From Actinomycetes bacterium (GTDB taxonomy: Bacteria; Actinomycetota; Actinomycetes; Streptosporangiales; Streptosporangiaceae), in the NCBI GenBank assembly GCA_021792405.1, contig JAJYUU010000031.1:1-38909 (forward strand): a stretch of DNA of 38,909 nucleotides, given 5' to 3'. Made by a program: the position numbers and the translations under genes. The notes under the pieces are model-generated. The model saw only the letters and a list, made by a program, of their open reading frames with translations, did no database searches and was not told where the DNA came from. This document shows, one piece after another, positions 7,081 through 38,578 of this stretch (position 1 is the first letter of the stretch; each line of letters opens with the position of its first letter).

Positions 7081-7866
7081 CTACGCCGTGGCCGCCGCCA
7101 GCACCGGGAGCAGGAAACGGATGCGGCTGTCCAGCTCGTCGGCAGTGCGCTCGAACGCGACATGTCCCGCCAGGCCATCCTCGCCAGCCGCCGGATCAGG
7201 CAGGCTCCAGTGGATCCGGGCCGGGCGCCCGGCGAACTCCGGGAGTGCCTCGCGGGCCTTGTCACACAGGCTGACCACGTAGTCGAATGGCTGCGCGCCA
7301 GCAGCGCCGGCCTGAGCAGGACGGTGCCGGCTGATGTCGATGCGGTACCGATCCCGCATCACCGCGACCGCGTCCGGGTGCACGGGCTTGGGCCGGATAC
7401 CCGCGCTCGCTGCCCGCACCTGCCCGGCCGCGCGGTAGCGCAGCAGCGCCTCGGCCATCGGCGACCGGCTGCTGTTCCCGGTGCAGACGAACAGCACCGC
7501 CCGTCGCTCCCGCCGTACGGCGGTGCCCGGGTCCGCGGCAGCGCCAGCCACCGGACTGCCGGGCACGAGGACGAGTGCCGGGTGCAGGGCAGATGCGGCG
7601 TCCGCCAGCGCCCGCGAGCATCCGCTCAAATCCAGGCTGTAGTACATGTGCCGGGCGTCGAAACTACTGCGCCGCGCCCTCACCAGGCCACTCTCGCGCA
7701 GCTGGCGCAGATGATAGGAGACCAGATTCTGCGGCTGCCCGGTCGCGGTGACGAGCTCGCGGACCCGCCGGTCGCCGCCGGCCAGCTCCCGCACCAGCCA
7801 CCACCGCACCGGGTCCGCCAGCAGCCTTACTACTGGCGGAACCAGGCCCGGCGCAGACGCTGCCAC
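7081..7866 (-). CDS. ArsR-type HTH fused to low-molecular-weight phosphatase-type arsenate reductase
   Basis: Residues about 10-95 form an ArsR-like winged helix (LADPVRWWLVREL, QPQNLVSYHLRQLRESGLV, ARHMYYSL). Residues about 120-258 form an arsenate reductase of the LMW protein tyrosine phosphatase fold: P-loop CTGNSSRSPM with Cys128 and Arg134, and the DP loop at Asp224. A second Cys (Cys201, in VVSLCDK) sits where thioredoxin-linked ArsC has a redox Cys, but the third Cys of that triad is missing, which suggests a mycothiol- or mycoredoxin-dependent enzyme. The start is taken as GTG 7866, with weak GGAAG upstream. The gene lies downstream of the ArsR-rhodanese gene on the same strand, separated by a strong hairpin. 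Fusion of regulator and enzyme suggests local control of arsenate detoxification. Confidence 0.88.
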   Translation of the reverse strand: MAASAPGLVPPVVRLLADPVRWWLVRELAGGDRRVRELVTATGQPQNLVSYHLRQLRESGLVRARRSSFDARHMYYSLDLSGCSRALADAASALHPALVLVPGSPVAGAAADPGTAVRRERRAVLFVCTGNSSRSPMAEALLRYRAAGQVRAASAGIRPKPVHPDAVAVMRDRYRIDISRHRPAQAGAAGAQPFDYVVSLCDKAREALPEFAGRPARIHWSLPDPAAGEDGLAGHVAFERTADELDSRIRFLLPVLAAATA

Positions 7867-7989: not shown

Positions 7990-8670
7990 TCAGGCGCTCG
8001 CCTGAGCGGTAACGGGCAATCCGGCGTGCCGCCAGTCGGGCAGCCCGCCCGCCAGCGGCCAGGCGGAGAAGCCGCGTGCCCGCAGCTGCCGTACCGCGTC
8101 GGGGGCGAAGACGCAGTACCGGCCACGGCAGTAGGCAACGATGTCGGCTCCGCCCGGGAGCTCGGCAAGCCGGGCGGCGAGCTGGTCATGCGGCACGTTC
8201 ACCGCGCCGGGAATGTGCCCTGCGGCATACTCGGCCTCGGGTCGCACGTCCAGCACCAGGACCTGCCCGTCATTCAGCCGCCGGACTAGCTCGTCTGGCG
8301 CAACCGGTTCCAGCGCTGCCACATCGCCCAGGTAGCTGCGGGCCGCTTGCTCGGCATCCGCGAGCCGGGACGTCGCGAAGTCCTGCACCCGGCCGGTGAA
8401 CGCGCTGACATTCTGGTCAGCGAGCCGGTAGTAGATCCGCACCCCGTCGCGGCGGGATGCAACCAGCCCGGCCCCGGCCAGCACCCGCAACTGCGCCGAG
8501 GTGTTCGACACCCTCAGGCCAGCCGCTGCCGCTAGTTCCTCGACGCTGCGCTCGCCCTGGGCCAGCAGGTCGAGCAGCTCCAGCCGGGCCGGGTTGGCCA
8601 GCGCCTTGCCCACCCGCGCGAACTGCTCGTAAAGGGCTGTCTTGCGCGCGCGCTCATCCGCCCGCATCAC
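7990..8670 (-). CDS. ArsR-family regulator fused to a rhodanese domain
   Basis: The 226-residue protein has an ArsR winged helix at residues about 15-85 (ALANPARLELLDLLAQGE, RVSNTSAQLRVLAGAGLV, RIYYRL) and a rhodanese domain at about 120-220 (VLDVRPEAEYAAGHIPGAVN; active loop CRGRYC with Cys181 and Cys186; LAGGLPDW). The HTH has no obvious metal-binding cysteines, so the likely signal is persulfide or another sulfane-sulfur species formed on the rhodanese Cys. It begins with two ATGs in a row. It is divergent from an MFS transporter across about 100 bases containing an AT-rich dyad, the usual arrangement for a repressor and its target. Confidence 0.92.
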   Translation of the reverse strand: MMRADERARKTALYEQFARVGKALANPARLELLDLLAQGERSVEELAAAAGLRVSNTSAQLRVLAGAGLVASRRDGVRIYYRLADQNVSAFTGRVQDFATSRLADAEQAARSYLGDVAALEPVAPDELVRRLNDGQVLVLDVRPEAEYAAGHIPGAVNVPHDQLAARLAELPGGADIVAYCRGRYCVFAPDAVRQLRARGFSAWPLAGGLPDWRHAGLPVTAQASA

Positions 8671-8680
8671 CGCTCCAACC

Positions 8681-8702
8681 TATTCTAATATATTTTGGAA
8701 TA
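8681..8702. promoter_or_regulatory. AT-rich inverted repeat, probable operator of the ArsR-rhodanese repressor
   Basis: TATTC at 8681-8685 and GAATA at 8698-8702 are perfect inverted arms, and nine of eleven base pairs across the 22-bp site match. It is a sharp AT-rich island in a GC-rich background. It sits eleven bases upstream of the ArsR-rhodanese start and inside the promoter region of the divergent transporter, so one site could control both. Confidence 0.7.
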
Positions 8703-8769
8703 TTGTATCTACTGCTGGAAGGCCGGTGAACTTCACCTGCGACCATCTGATCCCGCTCGCCGCGCGGTC

Positions 8770-10092
8770 ATGACCGAGATCAGCGCGGTGGCCCAGCCGG
8801 AGCTGGGGCTGCGCCAGAACTGGTGGCAGTTCTCCCTGTTCACCCTCATCACGCTGCTGGTCGGGATGACCATCGGGGTCGAGCGCGTCGCGCTGCCGCC
8901 GCTGGCAAAGGACGCCTTCAAAGTCACCTCGATCCTCTACACGATCTCGTTCATCGCCGCCTTCGGCGCGGTGAAGGCGGTGCTGAACCTGGTGTCGGGC
9001 CGACTGTCCGACCACCACGGACGCAAGACCCTGCTGCTGACGGGCTGGGCGTTCGGCATACCGTTCGCGCTGCTGATCATCTTCGCCCAGGCGTGGTGGT
9101 GGGTCGTGGTCGCCAACCTGTTCCTCGGCGTCAACCAGGCGCTCACCTGGACGATGTCGGTGACCGCCAAGATCGACCTGGTCGGTCCGGTCAACCGCGG
9201 CCTCGCGGTCGGCATCGACGAATCCGCCGGCTATGTCGGCACCGGACTCGGCGGCTTCGCCGCCGGGCTGCTCGTCGCCGCGTTTGGCCTGCGGCCCGCG
9301 CCCTACCTGCTCGCCCTCGGCGTGATCGCTATCGGCGCACTGGTCACCTTCGGCCCGGCAGCCGAGACCCTGCCGTGGGCACGGGCCGAAGCGGGCAGCC
9401 ATGCCAGCGCCACCCTGGCCGCCGGCACCTCCGCTACCCCGGCGCCTGCGCCCGCACTCGGCCGCCTGGCCGCCTACATGAGCTGGCAGGACAAGAGCAT
9501 GCTCGCGGTCTGCCAGGCCGGCCTGGTCAACAAGTTCACCGACGGCATGGTCGCCGCCATCTTCCCGATCTATTTCCTGCACAAGGGCCTGTCCCTGCCG
9601 CTGATCGGCCTCCTGACCGGCGTCTACGCCTGGGTCTGGGGGTTCGGCCAGGTCGCCAGCGGGGCGCTCGCCGACCGGATCGGCCGCAAGCCGCCGATCA
9701 CCGCCGGTACCTTCTTCATCGGCGGCGGCATCGCCATCATCGCCGCCGCCAGCGCCAGGCCGGCCTGGTTCGCCGGCGCCGCCGTGATGGGCGCCGGGAT
9801 GGCGCTGGCCTACCCCAACCTGATCACCGCGGTCGGCGACACCGCCCACCCGGCCTGGCGGGGCGGCGCGCTTGGCGTCTACCGCCTGTGGCGCGATGCC
9901 GGCTACGCGGTCGGCCCCCTGATCCTCGGGATCGTGGCCACGCTGGCCGGCCTGACGGCCGCGCTATGGGCCTGCTCCGCCCTCATGGCCGCCTCCGGCC
10001 TGATCCTGCTGCTGCTCCTGCACGAGACCAACCCGCAGCGCCGCACCCGCAAACCCGCCTGGCAACGCGACCCCCGCCTCTTGCAGCCGTAA
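8770..10092 (+). CDS. Major facilitator superfamily transporter
   Basis: The 440-residue product has about twelve hydrophobic segments and the MFS loop 2-3 signature in both halves (GRLSDHHGRKTLLL and GALADRIGRKPP), with a short cytoplasmic linker rich in Ala and Pro between the halves. A longer frame opens at TTG 8695, but that lies inside the operator, so ATG 8770 (MTEISAVAQPELG) is preferred. Its substrate cannot be read from sequence. Divergence from a rhodanese-type repressor suggests export of a sulfur compound or other thiol-reactive stressor. A GC hairpin follows the stop. Confidence 0.88.
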   Translation: MTEISAVAQPELGLRQNWWQFSLFTLITLLVGMTIGVERVALPPLAKDAFKVTSILYTISFIAAFGAVKAVLNLVSGRLSDHHGRKTLLLTGWAFGIPFALLIIFAQAWWWVVVANLFLGVNQALTWTMSVTAKIDLVGPVNRGLAVGIDESAGYVGTGLGGFAAGLLVAAFGLRPAPYLLALGVIAIGALVTFGPAAETLPWARAEAGSHASATLAAGTSATPAPAPALGRLAAYMSWQDKSMLAVCQAGLVNKFTDGMVAAIFPIYFLHKGLSLPLIGLLTGVYAWVWGFGQVASGALADRIGRKPPITAGTFFIGGGIAIIAAASARPAWFAGAAVMGAGMALAYPNLITAVGDTAHPAWRGGALGVYRLWRDAGYAVGPLILGIVATLAGLTAALWACSALMAASGLILLLLLHETNPQRRTRKPAWQRDPRLLQP

Positions 10093-18092: not shown

Positions 18093-18932
18093 TCATGCCA
18101 CTGACGTGGCACCCGCCGATTGCCGGGACGCAGGGCGCGTCCCGGCCCCGAAACGGGCGTCCGGCGCGAGCCGGTACCCAGTGCGCGCGGAGAACTCCGC
18201 GAGCAGGCAGAACCGGTCGCCGCGGATCAGGGTCGTCCGCCACTCGACCAGCCTGCCCGCGGCGTACCCGAGCCGGCTGATCGCCAGCGCGCCGGTGGAC
18301 GCGCCGATGCCGAGGAGACGCTGCTCCGCCTTCGTCGGCACCACTCCGGTGACCTGCTCTCGCCCGCCGTCGATCCGGAGGCCGGTCCTGGCCTCGAGTT
18401 CGTCGTAGAGCGCGGCATGGGTGAAACTTGCCTCCAGCAGGGCGGCTCCCACGTCACCGGGCAGCCACACGGTATCCAGCGCGAGCGGCTCGTCGCCAGC
18501 CAGCCTCAGCCGCTCGAGCCGGAACAGCGGAGTCGACGCCTCCAGCCCGAGCCGGTCGGCAACCACTCCGTCGGCACGCAGTCCGACGGACCTGACCACG
18601 CTGGTCTGCCGCAGCCCAGCCGCCTCGACGGAGTTGAACAGCGAGTACACGGTGCCGAGCGGCTGGGCGATCTGGCCGGCGAGCCGCGGACGCCGTCCCC
18701 GTTCGGCCAGCACCACGCCATCCGTCCGTAGTTCGGCGAGGGCAGCCCGGACCGTCTGCCGGCTGACGCGGTAGTCCGCCACCAGTGCCATTTCGCCGGG
18801 AAAGTCCAGGTCGAACGCACCTGCCTGCAACCGCCTCAGCAGGTCGGCGCGAAGCTGCGCCCACAGCGGCGTCGGGCTGCGGCGATCCAGCGGCCTGGCC
18901 GCGGTCACCGGGCTGGCACTGTCAGGGGTCAT
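18093..18932 (-). CDS. GntR-family (HutC/UTRA) transcriptional regulator
   Basis: The 279-residue product has an N-terminal GntR winged helix (PLWAQLRADLLRRLQAGAF, DYRVSRQTVRAALAELRTDG, LAERGRRPRL) and a C-terminal UTRA ligand-binding domain (PLFRLERLRLAGDEPLALDT, VWLP, LYDELEARTGLRIDGGREQV, TTLIRGDRF). ATG 18932 is preferred over 19022 because a GGGAGG box lies just upstream and the extra 30 residues are not family-like. It is divergent from the sulfur-oxidation genes with a perfect 16-bp palindrome between them, so it probably regulates them. The effector is unknown. Confidence 0.92.
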   Translation of the reverse strand: MTPDSASPVTAARPLDRRSPTPLWAQLRADLLRRLQAGAFDLDFPGEMALVADYRVSRQTVRAALAELRTDGVVLAERGRRPRLAGQIAQPLGTVYSLFNSVEAAGLRQTSVVRSVGLRADGVVADRLGLEASTPLFRLERLRLAGDEPLALDTVWLPGDVGAALLEASFTHAALYDELEARTGLRIDGGREQVTGVVPTKAEQRLLGIGASTGALAISRLGYAAGRLVEWRTTLIRGDRFCLLAEFSARTGYRLAPDARFGAGTRPASRQSAGATSVA

Positions 18933-19004: not shown

Positions 19005-19020
19005 GTACGAATGATCGTAC
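19005..19020. promoter_or_regulatory. 16-bp palindrome, likely GntR operator
   Basis: GTACGA at 19005-19010 and TCGTAC at 19015-19020 are perfect inverted arms around ATGA. The site lies between the divergent GntR gene (start 18932) and the metallo-beta-lactamase/rhodanese gene (start 19064), at the expected position of a shared operator. A related sequence recurs at 21701. Confidence 0.7.
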
Positions 19021-19063: not shown

Positions 19064-20452
19064 ATGGTCGAAGTGATCCCGATTGAGACGCCGACTCTCG
19101 GTGACCGCAGTTACCTGGTGCATGACGGCAACGTGGCCGTCGTCATCGACCCGCAGCGCGACACCGACCGGATAACGGCGCTGGCCGACACGGCAGGCGC
19201 ACGCATCACGCACGTCGCCGAGACTCACATCCACAACGATTACGTCAGCGGCGGCCTCGCACTGTCCCGCCAGGCTGGTGCCGCCTACCTGGTCAATGCG
19301 GCCGACCCGGTGCGCTTCGAGCGCACCCGCGTCAGGGACGGCGAGATCATCGAGATCAGCCCCCACATGCGGCTGCACGTGCTGGCCACGCCCGGCCATA
19401 CCTTCAACCACCTGAGCTACGCGCTGGAATCGGCCGGGTCGCTGGGCGCGGTGTTCACCGGCGGATCTCTGCTCTTCGGCTCGACCGGCCGTCCCGACCT
19501 TCTCGGGCCGGACAACACCAGGCCGCTGGCGCACGCGCAGTACGCATCCGCCCACCGGCTGGCGCGGGAACTGCCGGATACCGCACAGATCTACCCGACG
19601 CACGGATTCGGCAGCTTCTGCGCAGCGACCCAGGCTCAGGCAGCCTGGTCCACCATCGGCAGGGAGCAGCAGGTCAACCCGGTGCTGACGATGGCCGAGC
19701 ACGCCTATGTCGACGCCCTGCTGGCGGGGCTGGACGCCTACCCCACGTACTACGCGCACATGGGGCCGGTCAACCTCGCCGGACCCGGCGCTGCCGATCT
19801 CACCCCGCCCCGGCCGGCCGACCCGGCAGAGATCCGCCGCCGTATCGACGCCGGAGAGTGGGTCGTCGACCTGCGCAACCGCATCGCGTTCGCGGCCGGA
19901 TTCCTGCCCGGATCATTCTCCTTCTCACTCGATGGCAGCTTCGCCAGCTATCTCGGCTGGGCGATGCCGTGGGGCACGCCGCTGACGCTGCTCGGCGGGA
20001 CAGCCGAGGAGGTCGCGCAGGCCCAGCGCGAACTGGTTCGGATCGGGATCGACCGTCCGGTCGCAGCGGCCTCGGGCGGGCCGCAGGCCTGGGCAGCCGG
20101 GCAGGATCTCGCCACGATCCGGCTGGCAAAGTTCGGTGATCTGGCCGCCGCGATGGGGTCGGGCGGTCAGGAGAGCGTCCTCGTGCTCGACGTTCGCCGT
20201 CGGCTGGAGTGGCAGGACGGGCACGTCGCGGGCGCGATGCATATCCCGTTCAGCCAGCTGCCCGGCCGGGTTGAGGAGATCCCGGCCGGGGACGTATGGA
20301 TTTACTGCCACACCGGCTACCGCGCGGTCGTTGCCGCTTCGATGCTGGCGGCCGGCGGCCGCCGGGTGATCAGTGTCGATGACGATTTCGCCAATGCCGA
20401 GGGGGCGGGGCTACCTATCTTGCGCAGTCAGCCGAAGGAGTTAACGCGATGA
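19064..20452 (+). CDS. Metallo-beta-lactamase / rhodanese protein (persulfide dioxygenase-like, CstB-like layout)
   Basis: The 462-residue product has an N-terminal metallo-beta-lactamase domain of the ETHE1/persulfide-dioxygenase type (ETHIHNDYVSGG with His55, His57 and Asp59; TPGHTFNHLSY with His112; GSTGRPDLLG; YPTHGFGSFC) and two C-terminal rhodanese-like domains. The first lacks a catalytic Cys (DLRNRIAFAAGFLPGSFSF); the second has it (VWIYCHTGYRAVVAA). This is the layout of staphylococcal CstB. Two metal-site positions differ from ETHE1: Tyr60 replaces the His after Asp59, and Gly replaces the ligand Asp (TGGSLLFG instead of TGD). GGGAGG precedes ATG 19064. The stop overlaps the next gene. 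The role is probably persulfide oxidation or transfer, with dioxygenase activity uncertain. Confidence 0.9.
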   Translation: MVEVIPIETPTLGDRSYLVHDGNVAVVIDPQRDTDRITALADTAGARITHVAETHIHNDYVSGGLALSRQAGAAYLVNAADPVRFERTRVRDGEIIEISPHMRLHVLATPGHTFNHLSYALESAGSLGAVFTGGSLLFGSTGRPDLLGPDNTRPLAHAQYASAHRLARELPDTAQIYPTHGFGSFCAATQAQAAWSTIGREQQVNPVLTMAEHAYVDALLAGLDAYPTYYAHMGPVNLAGPGAADLTPPRPADPAEIRRRIDAGEWVVDLRNRIAFAAGFLPGSFSFSLDGSFASYLGWAMPWGTPLTLLGGTAEEVAQAQRELVRIGIDRPVAAASGGPQAWAAGQDLATIRLAKFGDLAAAMGSGGQESVLVLDVRRRLEWQDGHVAGAMHIPFSQLPGRVEEIPAGDVWIYCHTGYRAVVAASMLAAGGRRVISVDDDFANAEGAGLPILRSQPKELTR

Positions 20453-21657
20453 GCGCAGCGGGCACGGAGCACTACAAGATCCTTATTATCGGCGGCGGTA
20501 CCGCCGGGATCACCACGGCTGCGAGGCTGTTGCGGGCCGGCCAGCCGGACATCGCCGTCATCGAGCCCTCTAGCCAGCATTACTACCAGCCGTTGTTCAC
20601 ACTCGTCGGCGGCGGTTGCGCGCCGCAGTCTGCGACAGTCCGCCCGGAGGCCGCGGTCATGCCCAAAGGGCTGCGGTGGATCACCGAGGCCGCGACCGCG
20701 ATCGATCCGGGCGGTCAGACGGTTACCACCGACGGCGGTCGCACCGTGGGCTACGACTACCTAGTCGTGGCGCCCGGCATCCAGCTGGACTACGACAAGG
20801 TGCCCGGGCTCACCGAGGCGCTCGGCCGTAACGGTGTGTCCAGCAACTACCGCTTCGACCTGACCCCGCGTACCTGGGAATTCATTCGGGACATGCGGGG
20901 TGGCACAGCCGTGTTCACCATGCCGGCCGGGCCGATCAAGTGCGCCGGCGCACCGCAGAAGATCGCCTACCTGGCCGCCGACTGGTGGCGCAGCCAGGGC
21001 GTGCTCGACAAGACCAGGATCATCCTGGTACTGCCCACGGCCGCGATGTTCAGCCAGCCCGACTGGGCGAAGGTGCTGGAGGGCATCGCCGCTGGGTACG
21101 GCATCGAGGTACGGAAGGAGTCCCAGCTAACCGAGGTGGACGGCGACGCCAGGCGGGCGGTCATCCTCGACACCAAAGCGGGCACCAAGGAGGCGATCGA
21201 CTACGACTTCCTGCATGCCACTCCGCCGCAAAGCGCCCCGGACTGGGTAAAGGCCAGCCCGCTGGCCGATCCGGCCAGCCCGTTCGGCTACGTCAACGTG
21301 GACAAATACACGCTGCAGCATGTCGAGTGGCCGAACGTGTTCGCGATCGGCGACGCATCGAACCTGCCGACCTCCAAGACCGGCGCCGCCATCCGCAAGC
21401 AAGCCCCGGTGCTGGTCGCGAACCTGCTGGCGGCGCTGAGCGGCCAGCCGGCCGCGCAGCGCTACGACGGCTACACCTCGTGCCCCCTGGTGACCAGCCG
21501 GAACCGCATGCTGCTCGCCGAGTTCGATTACGACCTGAAGCGGCGGCCGACCATCCCGCTGATCAACACCCTGAAGCCGCGCTATGACATGTGGCTGCTC
21601 AAGCGGTACGGCCTGCCGGCCCTGTACTGGAACCTCATGATGCGCGGTCTCGCCTGA
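20449..21657 (+). CDS. sqr: Sulfide:quinone oxidoreductase (SQR), FAD-dependent
   Basis: SQR oxidises sulfide to persulfide or polysulfide and passes the electrons to membrane quinone. The 402-residue product has an N-terminal FAD-binding motif (ILIIGGGTAGITTAARLL), the SQR signature MPAGPIKCAGAPQKI with Cys165, a second redox Cys (Cys345, in GYTSCPLVTS), and the FAD-contacting VFAIGDASNLPTSKTGAA. A pair of catalytic cysteines fits the type II (eukaryote/mitochondria-like) SQR group. There is no transmembrane span; the C-terminus (MWLLKRYGLPALYWNLMMRG) is amphipathic, as expected for monotopic membrane attachment. The ATGA overlap couples it to the preceding persulfide gene. Confidence 0.92.
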   Translation: MSAAGTEHYKILIIGGGTAGITTAARLLRAGQPDIAVIEPSSQHYYQPLFTLVGGGCAPQSATVRPEAAVMPKGLRWITEAATAIDPGGQTVTTDGGRTVGYDYLVVAPGIQLDYDKVPGLTEALGRNGVSSNYRFDLTPRTWEFIRDMRGGTAVFTMPAGPIKCAGAPQKIAYLAADWWRSQGVLDKTRIILVLPTAAMFSQPDWAKVLEGIAAGYGIEVRKESQLTEVDGDARRAVILDTKAGTKEAIDYDFLHATPPQSAPDWVKASPLADPASPFGYVNVDKYTLQHVEWPNVFAIGDASNLPTSKTGAAIRKQAPVLVANLLAALSGQPAAQRYDGYTSCPLVTSRNRMLLAEFDYDLKRRPTIPLINTLKPRYDMWLLKRYGLPALYWNLMMRGLA

Positions 21658-21700
21658 CCCCCAGTGAGGGACCCGCGCGACGGGCTGGGCCGACCTTCAG

Positions 21701-21716
21701 TTACAAATGATCGTTG
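21701..21716. promoter_or_regulatory. Degenerate second copy of the GntR-type site
   Basis: TTACAAATGATCGTTG matches the 19005-19020 palindrome at 12 of 16 positions, including an identical AATGATCGT core. It lies 44 bases after the SQR stop and upstream of the ferredoxin-NrfD gene. An operator here would favour a downstream start for that gene. The right arm is poorly conserved, so the assignment is tentative. Confidence 0.35.
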
Positions 21717-21775
21717 TGGGGGATACAAACGATTCCCGGCTGCCGCCGAACTTGCGCAGTACATACGGTCGCCAT

Positions 21776-23317
21776 ATGGCCGTAACCGACTTGCCCGCGC
21801 CGCGCTGGGTGAAACTGCTCGACCAGAGCCGGTGCATCGGGTGCCACGCCTGCACAACCGCATGCAAGAGCGAGAACGAGGTACCCGTCGGGGTAACGCG
21901 CACGTACGTCAAGTCGGTAGATGCCGGAACCTTCCCGGACGTCCGGCGAGCCTTCCAGGTCACCAGGTGCAACCAGTGCGAAGACGCGCCGTGCGTGAGC
22001 GCCTGCCCGACCGCGGCGATGTACAAGCGGGACGACGGCATCGTCGACTTCGACAAGTCGGTCTGCATCGGCTGCAAGGCCTGCATGGCCGCATGCCCGT
22101 ACGACGCCATCTTCATCAACCCCGAGGATCACTCGGCGGAGAAATGCAACATGTGCGCGCACCGGCTCGACGTGGGCCTCGAGCCCGCGTGCGTGACGGT
22201 GTGCCCGGTTGAGGCGATCATAGTCGGCGACCTGAACGACCCGGACTCGCAGGTCGCGCGGGTCATCGGGCGCGAGCCCGTGCAGGTGCGGCGGCCCGAA
22301 AAGGAAACCCGGCCCGGCGTCTTCTACAAGGGAGCGCACCAGGCCACCCTGGACCCGCTGGCGGCGCGGCGGCCCGAGGGCGGCTTGCTCGCGTGGGCAA
22401 CCCAGGGCGCGGCAGGACCGCAGTCGGTGAACTCTGGCCACCCCGGCCGGCCTGCCTCGTCGGCTGCCGCGCTGCTGTCCTACGACGTGCCGCACACCGC
22501 GCCGTGGGGCTGGCGGGTCAGCCTCTACACCTGGACCAAGAGTATCGCGGCGGGCGGTTTCGCCGTGCCGGTCCTGCTCGCCCTCACCGGCGTGCTGCGC
22601 TGGAGCAACCCGGCGGTGCGCTGGGCCGCTCCGGCCTTCGCACTGGCCTTCCTCGCGGTCACCGGGGTGCTGCTGATCATCGACCTCAAGCACCCGGCGC
22701 GGTTCTACCTCATCTTCACCCGGCACCAGTGGCGAAGCTGGCTGGTGCGCGGCAGCCTGATCATCGGCGGCTACGGCGCGGCAGCCACCGGGTACCTGCT
22801 GCTTGCGCTGGCCGGGAACGCGGCCGGCTTCCTGACCGCACGCCAGGCATTCGCCTGGGCAGGGTTGCCCCTCGCCCTCGGCACGGCGATCTACACTGCC
22901 TGGCTGTTCGGCCAGGCCAAGGCACGTGACCTATGGCAGAGCCCGCTGCTCGCACCGCACCTGGCAGTCCAGGCCGCGCTGGCAGGCACTGCGGCGACCC
23001 TGCCGGTACTGAGCTGGCTCGCGCCCGCGCACGCTGTCAGCGCCGGCGAGATGGCGCTCGCGCTGGCAGCCGGGCTGGACCTGCTGCTGGTGGCCGCTGA
23101 GATAACGATGCCGCACGTGACGGCGCACGCACACCTGGCCACCCGGAACATGACGCGCGGGCAGTTCGCCTGGTTCTTCTGGCCCGGCCTGGTCGGCGTC
23201 GCTGTCGCGGTGGCGGCGCCATGGATCGGCGTGGCTGCGGTGCCGTTCGCCCTTGCCGGGCTGCTCAGCCAGGAACACGCCTACGTCCAAGCCGGCCAGT
23301 CAGTCCCGCTGGCCTAG
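21776..23317 (+). CDS. Fused 4x[4Fe-4S] ferredoxin / NrfD-type membrane subunit (SoeB-SoeC or PsrB-PsrC like)
   Basis: The 513-residue product joins two subunits normally encoded separately. The N-terminal part (about 1-190) has four complete cysteine clusters: CIGCHACTTAC, CNQCEDAPCVSAC, CIGCKACMAAC, and CNMC with PACVTVC. The C-terminal part (about 235-510) is an NrfD/PsrC quinone-interacting protein with about eight hydrophobic segments, including LIIDLKHPARFYLIFTRHQW. There is no Tat or Sec signal, so the clusters should face the cytoplasm. It would carry electrons between the catalytic subunit that follows and membrane quinone. ATG 21776 is chosen; an in-frame ATG at 21707 lies inside the GntR-like site, and neither start has a clear ribosome binding site. 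The next gene begins 15 bases after the stop. Confidence 0.9.
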   Translation: MAVTDLPAPRWVKLLDQSRCIGCHACTTACKSENEVPVGVTRTYVKSVDAGTFPDVRRAFQVTRCNQCEDAPCVSACPTAAMYKRDDGIVDFDKSVCIGCKACMAACPYDAIFINPEDHSAEKCNMCAHRLDVGLEPACVTVCPVEAIIVGDLNDPDSQVARVIGREPVQVRRPEKETRPGVFYKGAHQATLDPLAARRPEGGLLAWATQGAAGPQSVNSGHPGRPASSAAALLSYDVPHTAPWGWRVSLYTWTKSIAAGGFAVPVLLALTGVLRWSNPAVRWAAPAFALAFLAVTGVLLIIDLKHPARFYLIFTRHQWRSWLVRGSLIIGGYGAAATGYLLLALAGNAAGFLTARQAFAWAGLPLALGTAIYTAWLFGQAKARDLWQSPLLAPHLAVQAALAGTAATLPVLSWLAPAHAVSAGEMALALAAGLDLLLVAAEITMPHVTAHAHLATRNMTRGQFAWFFWPGLVGVAVAVAAPWIGVAAVPFALAGLLSQEHAYVQAGQSVPLA

Positions 23318-23331
23318 CAGGAGAGTCCCAG

Positions 23332-26301
23332 ATGCCACGAAACCACCCCGGCACCCCGTCAGCCGACCGCCCGGCCGACCCTGGCCTGGCAACGCTGAAC
23401 GCCCGGCTGTCCGCGGCGCGCGCTGCGACGCAAGCCCGCGGCGAGACCTTTTACCAGGGTCCGAGCCGGGTGCACCTGGCAGCCTTCCCGCCGAAGGAAC
23501 GGTGGGATGACTGGGCCGAGCTGTCATCCAGAGCCTGGCCGCGCCGCGAGGAGCGGCACTACATGCTGGTGCCGACCACGTGCTTCAACTGCGAGTCCGC
23601 CTGCGGGCTGCTGGCCTACGTTGACCGCGAGAGCGGGCAGGTTCGCAAGTTCGAGGGCAACCCCGAGCACCCGGGCTCGCGCGGCCGGAACTGCGCCAAG
23701 GGCCCGGCCACGCTCAACCAGGTCACCGACCCGGACCGGATCCTGTACCCGCTGCGCCGCAGCGGGCCACGTGGCTCCGGCAGCTGGGAGCGGGTGAGCT
23801 GGGATGAGGCACTCGATGTGCTGGCCGCCCGCATCCGCGCCGCGCTGACCGAGGGCCGCCAGAACGAGATCATGGTGCACCTCGGCCGACCCGGCGAGGA
23901 CGGGTTCACCGAGCGGGTACTCGCCAGCTGGGGGGTGGACGGCCATAACTCGCACACCAACGTGTGCTCGAGCGGTGGCCGGACCGGCTTCCAGTTCTGG
24001 ATGGGCATCGACCGGCCTAGCCCGGATCACGCGCACGCGAAGGTTATCTACCTGATCAGCGCTCACCTGGAGTCCGGGCATTACTTCAACCCGCACGCGC
24101 AGCGGATCACGGAGGCCAGGGAGAACGGCGCGAAAGTGATCGTGCTGGACACCAGGCTGTCCAACACCGCCAGCCACGCCGATTACTGGCTGTCTCCGCA
24201 GCCCGGCAGCGAGGCAGCGATCAACCTGGCCATCGCCAACCACCTCATCCAGACCAAGCGCTACGATCGCGACTTCGTCCGGCGCTGGTGGAACTGGCGG
24301 GAATACCTCGCCGCATGTCATCCCGGCGAGCCGCCGACCTTCGAGGCCTTCGAGGCCATCCTGGCGCAGCTGTACACCGAATTCACCTTCGACTACGCGG
24401 CCGCCGAGTCGGGCATCGACGCTGCCGTGCTCGCCGAGGTCGCCGAGGTGGTGGCCGGGGCCGGCCATCAGTTCGCCTGTCACTCCTGGCGGTCGGCGGC
24501 CGCCGCCAATCTCGGCGGCTGGCAGGTGTCCAGGACCGTGTTCCTAATCAGCGCGCTGCTCGGCGCGGTAGCCACGCCGGGCGGCACGTTCCCGAACGCG
24601 TGGAACAAGTTCATCCCCCGGCCCATTCACGTCCCGCCGCACCCCGGCGTCTGGCAGGACCTGTCCTGGCCGACTGAGTACCCGCTGGCGCAGAACGAGC
24701 TGAGCTTCCTGCTCCCCCACTTCCTGGCTGACGGGCGGGGCCGCCTCGACACCTATTTCATCCGCGTCTACAACCCGGTCTGGACGAACCCGGACGGGCT
24801 GTCCTGGATGGAGGCGCTGACCGACGAGAACAAGGTGGGCTGCTTCGTCGCGCTGACGCCGACCTGGAGCGAATCGGCCTACTTCGCCGATTACGTGCTG
24901 CCGATGGGGCACAGCCCGGAACGGCACGACACGCACTCCTACGAGCAGTACGACGGCCAGTGGATCGGCTTCAGGCAGCCGGTGCTGCGCGCAGCGCGCG
25001 AGCGGCTGGGCGAGACAATCACCGACTCGCGCGAGGTCAACCCGGGCGAGGTGTGGGAGGAGAACGAGTTCTGGACCGAGTTGTCCTGGCGGATCGACCC
25101 GGACGGCTCGCTCGGCATCCGGCAGTACCACGAGTCGCGCGCCAGGCCCGGCGAGAAGCTGAGCGTGGACGAGTATTACGGCTGGATGTTCGAGCACTCG
25201 GTACCGGGGCTGCCCGAGCGCGCGGCGAGCGAGGGCCTGACGCCGCTGCAGTGGATGCGCCGTTACGGGGCATTCGAGATCTCCCGCGGGAACGGGCCCC
25301 TGCACGAGCAGCCGGTGCCTGACGGCGAACTCGACGACGTGGTCGTCACCGATACGGGCCGGGTCTACAGCGCAGCCGCCCGGCCTCCGGGTGCGAACAT
25401 CGTGCCGACCGGAGCCCCGGAAGCGGACCCGAACGGCCGCACGCCTGCCGGTGTCGTCGTGGACGGGCAGGTCCTGCGCGGCTTCCCCACCCCGTCGGGC
25501 CGACTCGAGTTCTGGTCGTCGACGCTGGCCGGCTGGGGCTGGCCCGAGCACGCGCTGCCCGGCTACATCAAGAGCCACGTGCATCCGGAGCGGCTGGAGC
25601 CCGGCCAGGTCGTGCTGCTGTCCACCTTCCGGCTGCCGACCCAGATCCACACCCGCTCGGCGAACGCCAAGTGGCTCAACGAACTCGCGCACACCAACCC
25701 GGTATGGGTTCATCCACGGGATGCGGGCCGGTTCGGCATCGCCAAGACCGGCGATCTGGTCCGGGTCGAGACCGAGATCGGCTACTTCGTCGCGAAGGCA
25801 TGGATCACCGAGGGCATCCGGCCAGGCGTGGTGGCCTGCAGCCATCACATGGGCCGGTGGCGCCTGCAGGGCGACCCACGCGGCGGCGGTCCGATGCCCG
25901 TCGTCAGCCTCGAACACGGCGATGACGGCTGGCGGATGCAGCAGCGCAAGCCGGCCGGCCCGTACGATTCGGCCGATCCGGACACCAGGCGCATCTGGTG
26001 GAGCGACACCGGCGTCCACCAGAACCTGACCTTCGGGGTGCATCCCGACCCCATCTCCGGCATGCACTGCTGGCACCAGGCCGTCCGGGTCGGGCCCGCC
26101 AGGCCCGGCGACCGGCACGGTGACATCCACGTCGACACCGACCGAGCCCGTGAGATCTACCGGCAGTGGCTCACCCTCGCCCGCCCTGCCGGGCAGGTAT
26201 CGCCCGATGGCTTGCGACGGCCACGCTGGCTGATGCGCCCCCTCAAGCCGACCGTTGCCGCCTACGCCCTGCCCGGCCGGGCGGCGGAGCGCCGCGAATG
26301 A
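23332..26301 (+). CDS. Molybdopterin oxidoreductase catalytic subunit (SoeA/PsrA/PhsA group)
   Basis: The 989-residue product belongs to the DMSO reductase superfamily. A [4Fe-4S] motif at Cys84, Cys87, Cys91 and Cys121 precedes the molybdopterin domains; the probable Mo ligand is Cys212 in NVCSSGGRTGF, as in the PsrA/PhsA/SoeA branch, and the C-terminal dinucleotide-binding domain is complete. No twin-arginine signal is seen at the N-terminus, so the enzyme is predicted to be cytoplasmic. That favours a sulfite-oxidising SoeA role over the exported polysulfide/thiosulfate reductases, which carry Tat signals. AGGAGA lies about seven bases before ATG 23332. Neighbours (SQR, persulfide gene, TorD chaperone) support sulfur metabolism. 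The substrate is inferred, not proven. Confidence 0.9.
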   Translation: MPRNHPGTPSADRPADPGLATLNARLSAARAATQARGETFYQGPSRVHLAAFPPKERWDDWAELSSRAWPRREERHYMLVPTTCFNCESACGLLAYVDRESGQVRKFEGNPEHPGSRGRNCAKGPATLNQVTDPDRILYPLRRSGPRGSGSWERVSWDEALDVLAARIRAALTEGRQNEIMVHLGRPGEDGFTERVLASWGVDGHNSHTNVCSSGGRTGFQFWMGIDRPSPDHAHAKVIYLISAHLESGHYFNPHAQRITEARENGAKVIVLDTRLSNTASHADYWLSPQPGSEAAINLAIANHLIQTKRYDRDFVRRWWNWREYLAACHPGEPPTFEAFEAILAQLYTEFTFDYAAAESGIDAAVLAEVAEVVAGAGHQFACHSWRSAAAANLGGWQVSRTVFLISALLGAVATPGGTFPNAWNKFIPRPIHVPPHPGVWQDLSWPTEYPLAQNELSFLLPHFLADGRGRLDTYFIRVYNPVWTNPDGLSWMEALTDENKVGCFVALTPTWSESAYFADYVLPMGHSPERHDTHSYEQYDGQWIGFRQPVLRAARERLGETITDSREVNPGEVWEENEFWTELSWRIDPDGSLGIRQYHESRARPGEKLSVDEYYGWMFEHSVPGLPERAASEGLTPLQWMRRYGAFEISRGNGPLHEQPVPDGELDDVVVTDTGRVYSAAARPPGANIVPTGAPEADPNGRTPAGVVVDGQVLRGFPTPSGRLEFWSSTLAGWGWPEHALPGYIKSHVHPERLEPGQVVLLSTFRLPTQIHTRSANAKWLNELAHTNPVWVHPRDAGRFGIAKTGDLVRVETEIGYFVAKAWITEGIRPGVVACSHHMGRWRLQGDPRGGGPMPVVSLEHGDDGWRMQQRKPAGPYDSADPDTRRIWWSDTGVHQNLTFGVHPDPISGMHCWHQAVRVGPARPGDRHGDIHVDTDRAREIYRQWLTLARPAGQVSPDGLRRPRWLMRPLKPTVAAYALPGRAAERRE

Positions 26302-36315: not shown

Positions 36316-36843
36316 TCAGCCGCAGCACGCCGTCGTTGCGGGCGACTCGGTGAGCTGCTCGCCCAGCCCGGCGTCTCCGCAGCATGCCCCGGTGCCCGCG
36401 GCCGGCTCGCTGGCCTCTGGCGTTGCCCTGGCCGCGTCGAGGCTCTTGCTGCCGCCCTCGCCCCAGAATTCCTGGCTGTCAGCCAGAACGGTATAGATTT
36501 CCCAGCGCTCCCCGTTGGGCGCGCCCTGTACCCAGAACTTGTCCTGGCGGGCGTAGCAGCAGGTGGTGTCGCGCTCGTCGATTGAGGCAAGGCCGACACC
36601 GGCGAGGCGCAACTGCTCGGCATCGACCGCGGCGGTGTCGGGAACCTCGACGCCCAGGTGGTTGATGCTGCCGCCGTGGCCGGGGTTCTCCATCAGGATG
36701 AGCTTGAGCGGCGGGTCCGCGATCGCGAAGTTGGCGTAACCAGGCCGGACCTTCGCCGGCTCGGCGCCGAAGAGCTTGCTGTAGAACCCGATTGACTCCG
36801 CCAGGTCGTCGACGTTGATCGCGAGCTGTACGCGGCCGGTCAT
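36316..36843 (-). CDS. cadI: ArsI/CadI-family dioxygenase-like protein
   Basis: The 175-residue vicinal-oxygen-chelate protein closely follows mycobacterial CadI: RVQLAINVDDLAESIGFYSK, VRPGYANFAIADPPLKLIL, NHLGVEV, and the arsenical-binding cysteine pair Cys95-Cys96 in TTCCYARQDKFW, then ERWEIYTVLADS. Compared with C-As lyase ArsI, two metal ligands are present (His62 and Glu115), but the first is Gln6 instead of His. A Cys-rich tail carries two further CC pairs (ACCGD and TACCG). It may cleave or bind organoarsenicals or be metal-inducible like CadI. It is divergent from an arsR gene. Confidence 0.9.
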   Translation of the reverse strand: MTGRVQLAINVDDLAESIGFYSKLFGAEPAKVRPGYANFAIADPPLKLILMENPGHGGSINHLGVEVPDTAAVDAEQLRLAGVGLASIDERDTTCCYARQDKFWVQGAPNGERWEIYTVLADSQEFWGEGGSKSLDAARATPEASEPAAGTGACCGDAGLGEQLTESPATTACCG

Positions 36844-36870
36844 GGGGAAACCTCCAGATATCGACTATCA

Positions 36871-36925
36871 TCTATGTCTTGACGGCTCGAGATTGCCACA
36901 ACACATAGGCGCCTGTCAATATAGA
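36871..36925. promoter_or_regulatory. Divergent cadI / arsR promoter region with inverted TCTAT...TTGAC elements
   Basis: TCTAT-GTC-TTGAC at 36871-36883 is mirrored by GTCAATATAGA at 36915-36925, whose complement reads TCTAT-A-TTGAC. The two sit symmetrically between the divergent starts at 36843 and 36929. Each TTGAC could serve as a -35 box pointing at its own gene, and the flanking TCTAT could be part of the ArsR site. An 8-bp palindrome, AGGCGCCT, lies at 36907. Confidence 0.4.
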
Positions 36926-36928
36926 AGC

Positions 36929-37294
36929 ATGTCGAAGTCTCCGATCATGCTGGACCCGGTCGGCGCGGCCGCGTGCTGCCCTCCGCTGACGGCCCGGCCG
37001 CTGTCCCAGGCCCAGGCCGATCAGATCGCGCCGCTACTGAAGGCACTTGCGGACCCGGTGCGCTTGCGGCTGATGTCCCTGGTCGCCTCCCACCGGGGCG
37101 GCGAGGCCTGCGTCTGCGACCTGAACGACGCCTTCGACCTGTCCCAGCCCACGATCAGCCACCACCTGAAGGTCCTGCACGATGCCGGGCTGCTCGACCG
37201 CGACAAGCGCGGCGTCTGGGTGTACTACCGGGTCAGGTCCGCCGCGCTGGCCAGCATCGCCGCCATGATCGCCGGCACGCCTGCCATCGGCTGA
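36929..37294 (+). CDS. arsR: ArsR-family metalloregulator with CC and CVC cysteine motifs
   Basis: The 121-residue repressor has an ArsR winged helix (LLKALADPVRLRLMSLVASH, LNDAFDLSQPTISHHLKVLH, RGVWVYYRV). Candidate As(III)/metal ligands are Cys16-Cys17 in AACCPP and Cys61-Cys63 in EACVCDL, as in the Rv2642-like group. It would repress the divergent cadI and its own gene until arsenite or cadmium binds. ATG 36929 is chosen because the frame upstream to 36815 runs into cadI. A second, distinct arsR lies 150 bases downstream. Confidence 0.92.
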   Translation: MSKSPIMLDPVGAAACCPPLTARPLSQAQADQIAPLLKALADPVRLRLMSLVASHRGGEACVCDLNDAFDLSQPTISHHLKVLHDAGLLDRDKRGVWVYYRVRSAALASIAAMIAGTPAIG

Positions 37295-37338
37295 CCAACT
37301 CCCCCCGGCCACCTCCGGTTGACCGGCTGACGCCATTT

Positions 37339-37372
37339 CCCCCGGTCGCCACCGGCCGCCCCCCGGTCGCCA
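37339..37372 (+). repeat. Short direct repeats between the two arsR genes
   Basis: CCCCCGGTCGCCA occurs at 37339-37351 and 37360-37372. Flanking them, CGGCTGACGCCAT (near 37325) and CGGCTGGCGCCAT (near 37374) form an outer repeated pair. The 37295-37418 gap thus seems to be a partly duplicated non-coding segment with no gene. Confidence 0.6.
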
Positions 37373-37418
37373 TCGGCTGGCGCCATCTTTCCCGTTTCCG
37401 TGGCCTTGCGGACTTTGA

Positions 37419-37451
37419 CATTCATCGTTTATCGTCGATCAACGATGAATG
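37419..37451. promoter_or_regulatory. ArsR operator: perfect 10-bp inverted arms over the start of the second arsR
   Basis: CATTCATCGT at 37419-37428 and ACGATGAATG at 37442-37451 are perfect inverted arms, and the 13-base spacer itself holds ATCG-T-CGAT. A TTGACA -35-like box at 37415-37420 abuts the left arm, and the right arm covers the ATG at 37445. Binding would block the promoter completely. The layout implies a leaderless or nearly leaderless transcript. Confidence 0.8.
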
Positions 37452-37792
37452 CTCACGAGCAACGGCCACTCGACCGCGCGACGGCGGCCGAGTTCGCCGG
37501 CTGGTTCAAGGCGCTCGCGGATGCCAGCCGGATCCAGATCGTTTCCCTGCTAGCCCGCCGCGGCACCCCGATGAGCGTCGGCGAGATCGTCGCCGCGGTC
37601 GACGTCGGCCAGTCCACCGTCTCGGCGCACCTGAAGGTCCTGGCTGACGTGCGGTTCGTGCTCGCCGATCACCGGGGCACCGCCACCTATTACCGGATCA
37701 ACGAGGCCTGCGTCGGCTGCTTCCCGACGGCCGCAGACATCGTGATGGGCAAGCCAGCCCCAGTTGCGCCGCTACCAGCCACATCCGCATAG
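37445..37792 (+). CDS. ArsR-family regulator, second type (C-terminal CxxC)
   Basis: The 115-residue product has an ArsR winged helix (GWFKALADASRIQIVSLLAR, AVDVGQSTVSAHLKVLADVR, GTATYYRINEAC) and a C-terminal Cys89-x2-Cys92 in ACVGCFPTAADIVMG, a signature of ArsR proteins linked with arsenite methyltransferase genes. ATG 37445 has no ribosome binding site and lies inside the operator arm, so leaderless initiation is likely. The arsM gene begins ten bases after its stop with a good AGGGAG box, forming an autoregulated pair. Confidence 0.92.
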   Translation: MNAHEQRPLDRATAAEFAGWFKALADASRIQIVSLLARRGTPMSVGEIVAAVDVGQSTVSAHLKVLADVRFVLADHRGTATYYRINEACVGCFPTAADIVMGKPAPVAPLPATSA

Positions 37793-37801
37793 GGAGACTG
37801 C

Positions 37802-38578
37802 ATGACAGCCGACGGCGACGACCCGATTATCAGCAAGTACGCGCGGCTCGCCGTGGCCGCGCTGAGCGGCGACGACATCAGCGACTGCGATGCAGGTGCC
37901 GCCGGGGAGTGCGGCTTCAGCGCCGCCGCCTACGCCGATCGCGACCAGGCGCCGGAAGCCGCTTTCCGCGCGAGCCTGGGCTGCGGAAACCCGTTGATGG
38001 TCGCCAGGCTCAGGCCTGGGGACACTGTCCTGGACCTTGGCTCCGGCGGGGGCCTCGATGTGCTGCTATCCGCCCGCAGAGTCGCACCGGACGGCATCGC
38101 TTACGGCCTGGACGCCAGCGCCGACATGCTCGCCCTCGCCCGCGCGAACGCTGACCTGGCGCAGATTACCAACGCCCGGTTCCTGCACGGCCGCATCGAG
38201 AACATCCCCCTGCCGGATAACCACGTCGACGTCGTCATCTCCAACTGCGTCATCAACCTGTCCGGTGACAAGCGCGCCGTTCTGGCCGAAGCGTTCCGCG
38301 TCCTCAAGCCCGGCGGACGACTCGGCATCAGTGACATCACTGCCGACGAGGACGCCGACCCGGCACAACTCGCCCGCAGCGAACAGGACGTCGGCTGTCT
38401 CGCCGGAGCGATCACGCAGCCGGAATACCAGCGCCTGCTGACTGCGGCCGGCTTCTCCGGCATCACCATCACCAGCACCAGCCCGGCGGCCGACGGCCTG
38501 CACTCGGCCATCATCCAGGCCATCAGGCCGCCACATGGCCAGGCCGGATCCGCGCCGCCGCCACCCGGACCGGGCTGA
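37802..38578 (+). CDS. arsM: Arsenite S-adenosylmethionine methyltransferase ArsM
   Basis: ArsM methylates As(III) to methyl and dimethyl arsenicals. The 258-residue product has the family start SKYARLA, the conserved cysteines Cys61 (SLGCGNP), Cys149 (ISNCVINLS) and Cys199 (VGCLAGA), SAM motif I DTVLDLGSGGGLDVLLSA, and FRVLKPGGRLGISDI. AGGGAG lies just upstream of ATG 37802. The last 14 or so residues (HGQAGSAPPPPGPG) are atypical and overlap a transposase remnant in another frame, so the native C-terminus may have been replaced. It is controlled by the adjoining ArsR. Confidence 0.94.
   Translation: MTADGDDPIISKYARLAVAALSGDDISDCDAGAAGECGFSAAAYADRDQAPEAAFRASLGCGNPLMVARLRPGDTVLDLGSGGGLDVLLSARRVAPDGIAYGLDASADMLALARANADLAQITNARFLHGRIENIPLPDNHVDVVISNCVINLSGDKRAVLAEAFRVLKPGGRLGISDITADEDADPAQLARSEQDVGCLAGAITQPEYQRLLTAAGFSGITITSTSPAADGLHSAIIQAIRPPHGQAGSAPPPPGPG

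Follow-up and report, generated by a model that had tools for sequence, protein, structure and literature searches.

The window, the 38,909 nucleotides of actinomycete DNA that were analysed, carries a gene in which an ArsR-type DNA-binding domain is fused to a rhodanese domain, and this gene lies back-to-back with an MFS transporter gene. In this study, the locus was read as encoding a sulfane-sulfur-responsive autorepressor of a cst-like detoxification module in which the MFS carrier replaces TauE, and the probability of this reading was put at about 0.7. The domain make-up of the regulator, its operator, its partnership with the MFS gene, the sulfur-gene context and the invariance of both cysteines of the rhodanese loop are backed by computation. 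Because the fusion regulator stands back-to-back with a transporter and shares with it an operator conserved across several phyla, it is very probably a sensor and switch in one protein for sulfur detoxification genes.

The regulator gene (7990-8670, minus strand) encodes a protein of 226 amino acids with matches to the Pfam families HTH_5 (2.3e-11) and Rhodanese (5e-19). The ATG at 8667 is probably the start rather than the GTG at 8670, and the cysteine pair described below would then be Cys180/Cys185. The winged-helix DNA-binding domain comprises residues 26-71 (8458-8595, minus strand), with Ser55 close to the start of the recognition helix, and the Pfam rhodanese domain comprises residues 125-215 (8026-8298, minus strand). 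In the family-model search, NF033788 scored the regulator at 82.1 bits against a cut-off of 55. The AlphaFold2 model, built on 39 homologues, had a pLDDT of 94.5 and a pTM of 0.88, and in the fold comparison its HTH was best matched by 3gw2 and 2kko (a fragment of Mb0332, residues 1-100) and its rhodanese by 3tp9; none of the PDB matches listed spanned both domains. Rv0324/Mb0332 of the M. tuberculosis complex, whose structures cover residues 1-100 only, has an HTH fold 53% identical to that of the regulator, and no ligand or operator for it was found in the literature searched. Full-length homologues (42-88% identity), in which the ArsR HTH is followed by a C-terminal rhodanese with CRGxxC, occur in Actinomycetota, Chloroflexota, Pseudomonadota and others, and within the host genus the family is patchy (one of eight other genomes). 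The fusion family was defined in the present analysis by an HTH and a rhodanese with invariant CRGxxC and by a 22-bp operator upstream; the window regulator has both the invariant pair and an upstream operator of the form TATTCxA-N8-TxGAATA.

The sequence-only reading had stated that the ArsR domain lacks metal cysteines, and this was borne out, as residues 1-110 of the window regulator are free of Cys, like those of 70 of the 81 homologues. The same reading had described the fused rhodanese, with its CRGRYC loop, as active-looking. The rhodanese fold and the nucleophilic Cys stood up to closer inspection, but the residue at the loop end did not. In 13 of 13 surveyed structures, this residue is Arg, Thr or Ser, which is required for the uptake of sulfur from thiosulfate (PMC8533005), and another rhodanese of the host genome aligns Arg there (CASGNR). 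Every regulator homologue has Cys at this position and retains the nucleophilic Cys. An active thiosulfate sulfurtransferase would combine the nucleophilic Cys with the loop-end Arg, Thr or Ser, and the loop of the regulator ends in Cys instead. The loop (8113-8130, minus strand) holds Cys181 and Cys186, is of the short six-residue type and aligns without gaps to ordinary rhodaneses. Both cysteines were invariant in 81 of 81 homologues of the first set and in 58 of 58 of the second; the latter, which came from a whole-protein search, is the cleaner test, since one retrieval peptide of the first set included Cys186. As an invariant Cys replaces the loop-end Arg, Thr or Ser, the domain looks, from its sequence, more like a rhodanese-derived CX4C dithiol sensor than an ordinary thiosulfate sulfurtransferase, and the loop is proposed as the sensor site. 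A second protein of the host genome (contig C22, 10210-10554) has a two-Cys rhodanese-like loop, CWGPSC.

The 22-bp dyad that had been reported between the regulator and MFS genes was found at 8681-8702 (TATTCTAATATATTTTGGAATA; on the regulator strand, TATTCCAA-N6-TTAGAATA), with pairing at 9 of 11 positions. The class TATTCxA-N8-TxGAATA is kept at one main spacing upstream of regulators from several phyla. In a first set of 81 regulator upstream regions (80 homologues and the window), controlled by 200 dinucleotide shuffles, exact ATTC-N12-GAAT was present in 26 regions against a shuffle mean of 0.3 and a maximum of 2. Other spacings of ATTC and GAAT mostly occurred 0-2 times, except for spacing 4 (10 loci) and spacing 20 (6 loci), an excess that fits overlapping or tandem half-sites. 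In a second set of 58 independent loci, an even sample of the phylum with random stretches from the same loci as the control, ATTC-N12-GAAT was present in 12 loci against 0.54 in the random stretches, and TTCAA-N8-TTGAA in 22, every other spacing giving 0 save for 2 at N16. Moreover, across the 5.39-Mb host genome, TATTCNA-N8-TNGAATA has a single exact match, which is the dyad at 8681-8702. Chance falls far short of explaining the dyad, given that its architecture recurs at one main spacing and that the genome holds no other exact match. Imperfect dyads are common in AT-rich promoters, and two of the 11 pairs between the arms are mismatched; nevertheless, the fixed spacing across phyla, the uniqueness in the genome and the fit to the recognition helix make it scarcely credible that this is an AT-rich palindrome that arose by chance in a GC-rich genome and regulates nothing. 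The earlier proposal that the dyad serves as an operator is thus upheld by its conserved spacing and by the recognition-helix/half-site match, and these comparisons support 8681-8702 as the predicted operator of the regulator. A candidate regulator promoter, TTCACC-17-TACAAT (8702-8730, minus strand), is a consensus match only; its -10 abuts the operator, the promoter ending at base 8702, the first base of the operator. In the promoter region, ACAATATTCC is kept among near homologues. At two other loci (L028 and L048), half-sites TATTCTATAATTCTATAGAATA overlap and are followed by GGAATA, a layout that suggests tandem dimer binding.

The fit between regulator and operator was followed by classing the best sites according to half-site bases 6-7 and comparing them with regulator residues 1-105. 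The HTH residue that discriminated best was 55, which lies early in the recognition helix (53-65 in the model, i.e., 54-66 in the 226-residue numbering). Where both half-sites agreed, Ala55 accompanied TTCAA in 77 of 77 cases and Ser or Thr55 accompanied TTCCA in 18 of 18, so that 95 of 95 were concordant and none discordant. When the recognition-helix columns were left out of the tree, the residue and the operator changed 4-5 times, with 2 independent pairs on well-supported branches and 4 on all branches; all of these changes agree with the match, and the sign test was not significant because there are too few independent changes (2-4). In the window, residue 55 of the regulator is Ser and the site is a mixed one, CA/TA.

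The divergent MFS gene of the sequence-only reading was recovered at 8770-10092 (plus strand; 440 amino acids; Pfam MFS_1, 8e-44), and 67 bp separate its start from the dyad. Across 396 genomes from the host phylum, with both families called at E<=1e-40, the MFS family was present in 57, the regulator in 56 and both in 46 (raw counts that ignore relatedness). Of 59 MFS copies, 46 lie within 6 kb of a regulator, 26 co-directional and 20 divergent, and the linked pairs are spread over about 16 families of the phylum. This linkage supports the MFS gene as the partner of the regulator. The nearest matches of the MFS protein in the family search were generic drug-efflux models, and PDB similarity gave weak drug-carrier hits only; neither search returned a characterised relative closer than generic drug-efflux carriers.

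The usual third partner of the regulator and the MFS gene is a CstB-like MBL-rhodanese, i.e., a persulfide dioxygenase (PDO)-rhodanese, often lying between them and present in 56 of 92 MFS-positive homologue loci. Where the MFS gene is missing, FCSD/SQR-like flavoproteins, DsrE, rhodanese and, at one locus, TauE are among the proteins encoded nearby. The same-genus homologue L152 (88% identity) has a PDO-rhodanese in the divergent slot with a TATTCCAA-type operator ahead of it. In four Gammaproteobacteria loci (L038, L042, L044 and L070), the place of MFS and PDO opposite the regulator is taken by a divergent fatty-acid-hydroxylase-like gene and a DedA-rhodanese fusion. The sulfur link drawn earlier from the sequence is supported, as to the wider setting of the regulator, by the PDO-rhodanese, SQR/FCSD-like, DsrE and rhodanese neighbours, which point to sulfane-sulfur metabolism.

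In the window, the CstB-like PDO-rhodanese (19064-20452, plus strand) is about 10 kb from the regulator and matches 3tp9 (4.9e-58) and 3r2u (8.1e-41), the latter presumably S. aureus CstB, along its full length. It is followed by a type III sulfide:quinone reductase-like gene (20449-21657, plus strand; NF049943, 3.6e-71, under the curated cut-off). The two open a sulfur-oxidation cluster (19064-26301) with an FeS-NrfD fusion and a molybdopterin oxidoreductase (Soe/Psr-like). A second operator copy at this cluster was considered and rejected: the exact pattern has no copy in the cluster promoter, its one match in the 5.39-Mb genome being the dyad at 8681-8702, and the promoter adjoins a GntR-type gene with its own dyad. 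This GntR/UTRA-type regulator (18120-18932, minus strand), named from its translation, is divergent from the PDO-rhodanese, and the palindrome GTACGAATGATCGTAC lies between them at 19005-19020; the pair is a candidate for separate control of the PDO/SQR cluster. Because the PDO, SQR, FeS-NrfD and molybdopterin genes at 19.1-26.3 kb have no operator and stand beside the GntR-type gene, the regulon in the host genome may be limited to the regulator and the MFS gene.

These neighbourhoods bear on three other readings. The first accepts a persulfide sensor and has the MFS protein import a sulfur compound, such as thiosulfate or a sulfonate, for use. The direction of an MFS carrier cannot be read from its sequence, and linkage to importers of the YeeE type is also documented for ArsR-type sulfur sensors (PMC12423496); the usual partner of the regulator, however, is a PDO-rhodanese, as in the detoxification circuits with the exporter TauE (PMC7533328), which leaves import a minority reading of some weight. 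Somewhat less likely is that the same regulator and operator form a general thiol redox switch, in which the CX4C answers peroxide, disulfide stress or hypoxia and the MFS protein is a multidrug exporter. A plain disulfide is possible for CX4C, drug-efflux models are the best MFS matches, and the nearest studied HTH relative, Rv0324, has been assigned to a hypoxia co-expression module (PMC4916473). Yet the genes that neighbour the regulator across phyla serve sulfur oxidation and sulfur transfer, not the handling of peroxide or drugs, and the sensor is housed in a rhodanese, a fold that normally works by persulfidation of Cys. Finally, the regulator might be a metalloid switch that senses arsenite or arsenate, with the MFS protein as the arsenic exporter. 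An ArsR protein fused to a low-molecular-weight phosphatase (LMWPc)/ArsC-like domain adjoins at 7081-7866, an arsM-like arsenite methyltransferase gene follows two further ArsR genes at 36815-38578, and ArsM-like methyltransferases lie near some regulator homologues. Against this, no more than one of the 138 regulator homologues has an ArsR-LMWPc gene nearby, and that match is partial; the loop has the short six-residue length and the gap-free alignment to ordinary rhodaneses noted above; and an ars regulator would have arsenic-binding Cys in the HTH and an arsenic transporter as partner, whereas the HTH here has no metal-binding Cys and the family-model search gave no arsenic-transporter match for the MFS protein. 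The arsenic switch, very improbable, was rejected on the gene neighbourhoods and the absence of metal Cys in the HTH.

Among known systems, SqrR, BigR, SoxR and HlyU (SSN cluster 4) sense through two Cys inside the HTH (helices 2 and 5), which form polysulfide bridges (PMC12423496, PMC10509353, PMC10451225). They share with the window locus the ArsR winged helix and, as predicted for the latter, autorepression by an ArsR dimer, and they are likewise linked to PDO, rhodanese and sulfur-transport genes. In the window regulator, by contrast, the HTH is Cys-free, the helix 2/5 pair is absent and the Cys pair is in the fused rhodanese; the BigR model NF040642 gave 50.2 bits, under its cut-off of 155. 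In S. coelicolor, a ScCsoR-PDO-TauE-rhodanese circuit has a repressor that is released by sulfane sulfur, and this circuit and the S. aureus cst operon resemble the module proposed here in joining a thiol-based autoregulating repressor with a type III persulfide dioxygenase, a rhodanese and an anion exporter (PMC7533328). They differ in having a CsoR-family regulator and TauE where the window locus has an ArsR-rhodanese and an MFS protein. The CstB-type family (PDB 3r2u, 3tp9) is the one most often beside the regulator, and this cst-type linkage is seen at many homologous loci, but in the host genome the gene is non-adjacent and has no operator. By this comparison, the window locus would resemble the SqrR-type and ScCsoR circuits in its working and belong to neither by their defining features.

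On the preferred reading of a sulfane-sulfur-responsive autorepressor, we infer the inducer, the chemistry, the direction of the switch, and the substrate and direction of transport as follows. As an ArsR-fold one-component repressor, the regulator would bind the operator at 8681-8702, which would lie between the regulator and MFS promoters, and would repress both genes. When levels of sulfane sulfur (polysulfide or low-molecular-weight persulfide) go up, the loop residue Cys181 of the rhodanese would be persulfidated and would be joined to Cys186, five positions further along, by a disulfide or polysulfide bridge. The bridge may alter the dimer such that DNA is released and MFS protein is made. 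The carrier would most likely export sulfite, thiosulfate or a related anion formed when sulfane sulfur is oxidised or transferred, and so may fill the role of TauE in the Staphylococcus and Streptomyces circuits of the cst type.

In the literature searched, no ArsR-rhodanese fusion was found described as a sulfur sensor. The main survey and network of ArsR sensors excluded proteins of more than 150 residues, which left two-domain ArsR-rhodanese regulators unplaced (PMC10509353). It seems somewhat better than an even bet that these proteins form a widespread class of reactive-sulfur sensors, in which a rhodanese loop turned CX4C senses for an ArsR repressor and controls a dedicated family of sulfur-anion MFS carriers. 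If true, a distinct way of sensing sulfur would be added for Actinomycetota, Chloroflexota, Pseudomonadota and others, together with a defined operator and, at position 55, a recognition residue open to testing. Furthermore, this would give a likely role in sulfur transport to an MFS family labelled so far merely as drug-efflux-like carriers, and would suggest an inducer for the Rv0324-like regulators of mycobacteria.
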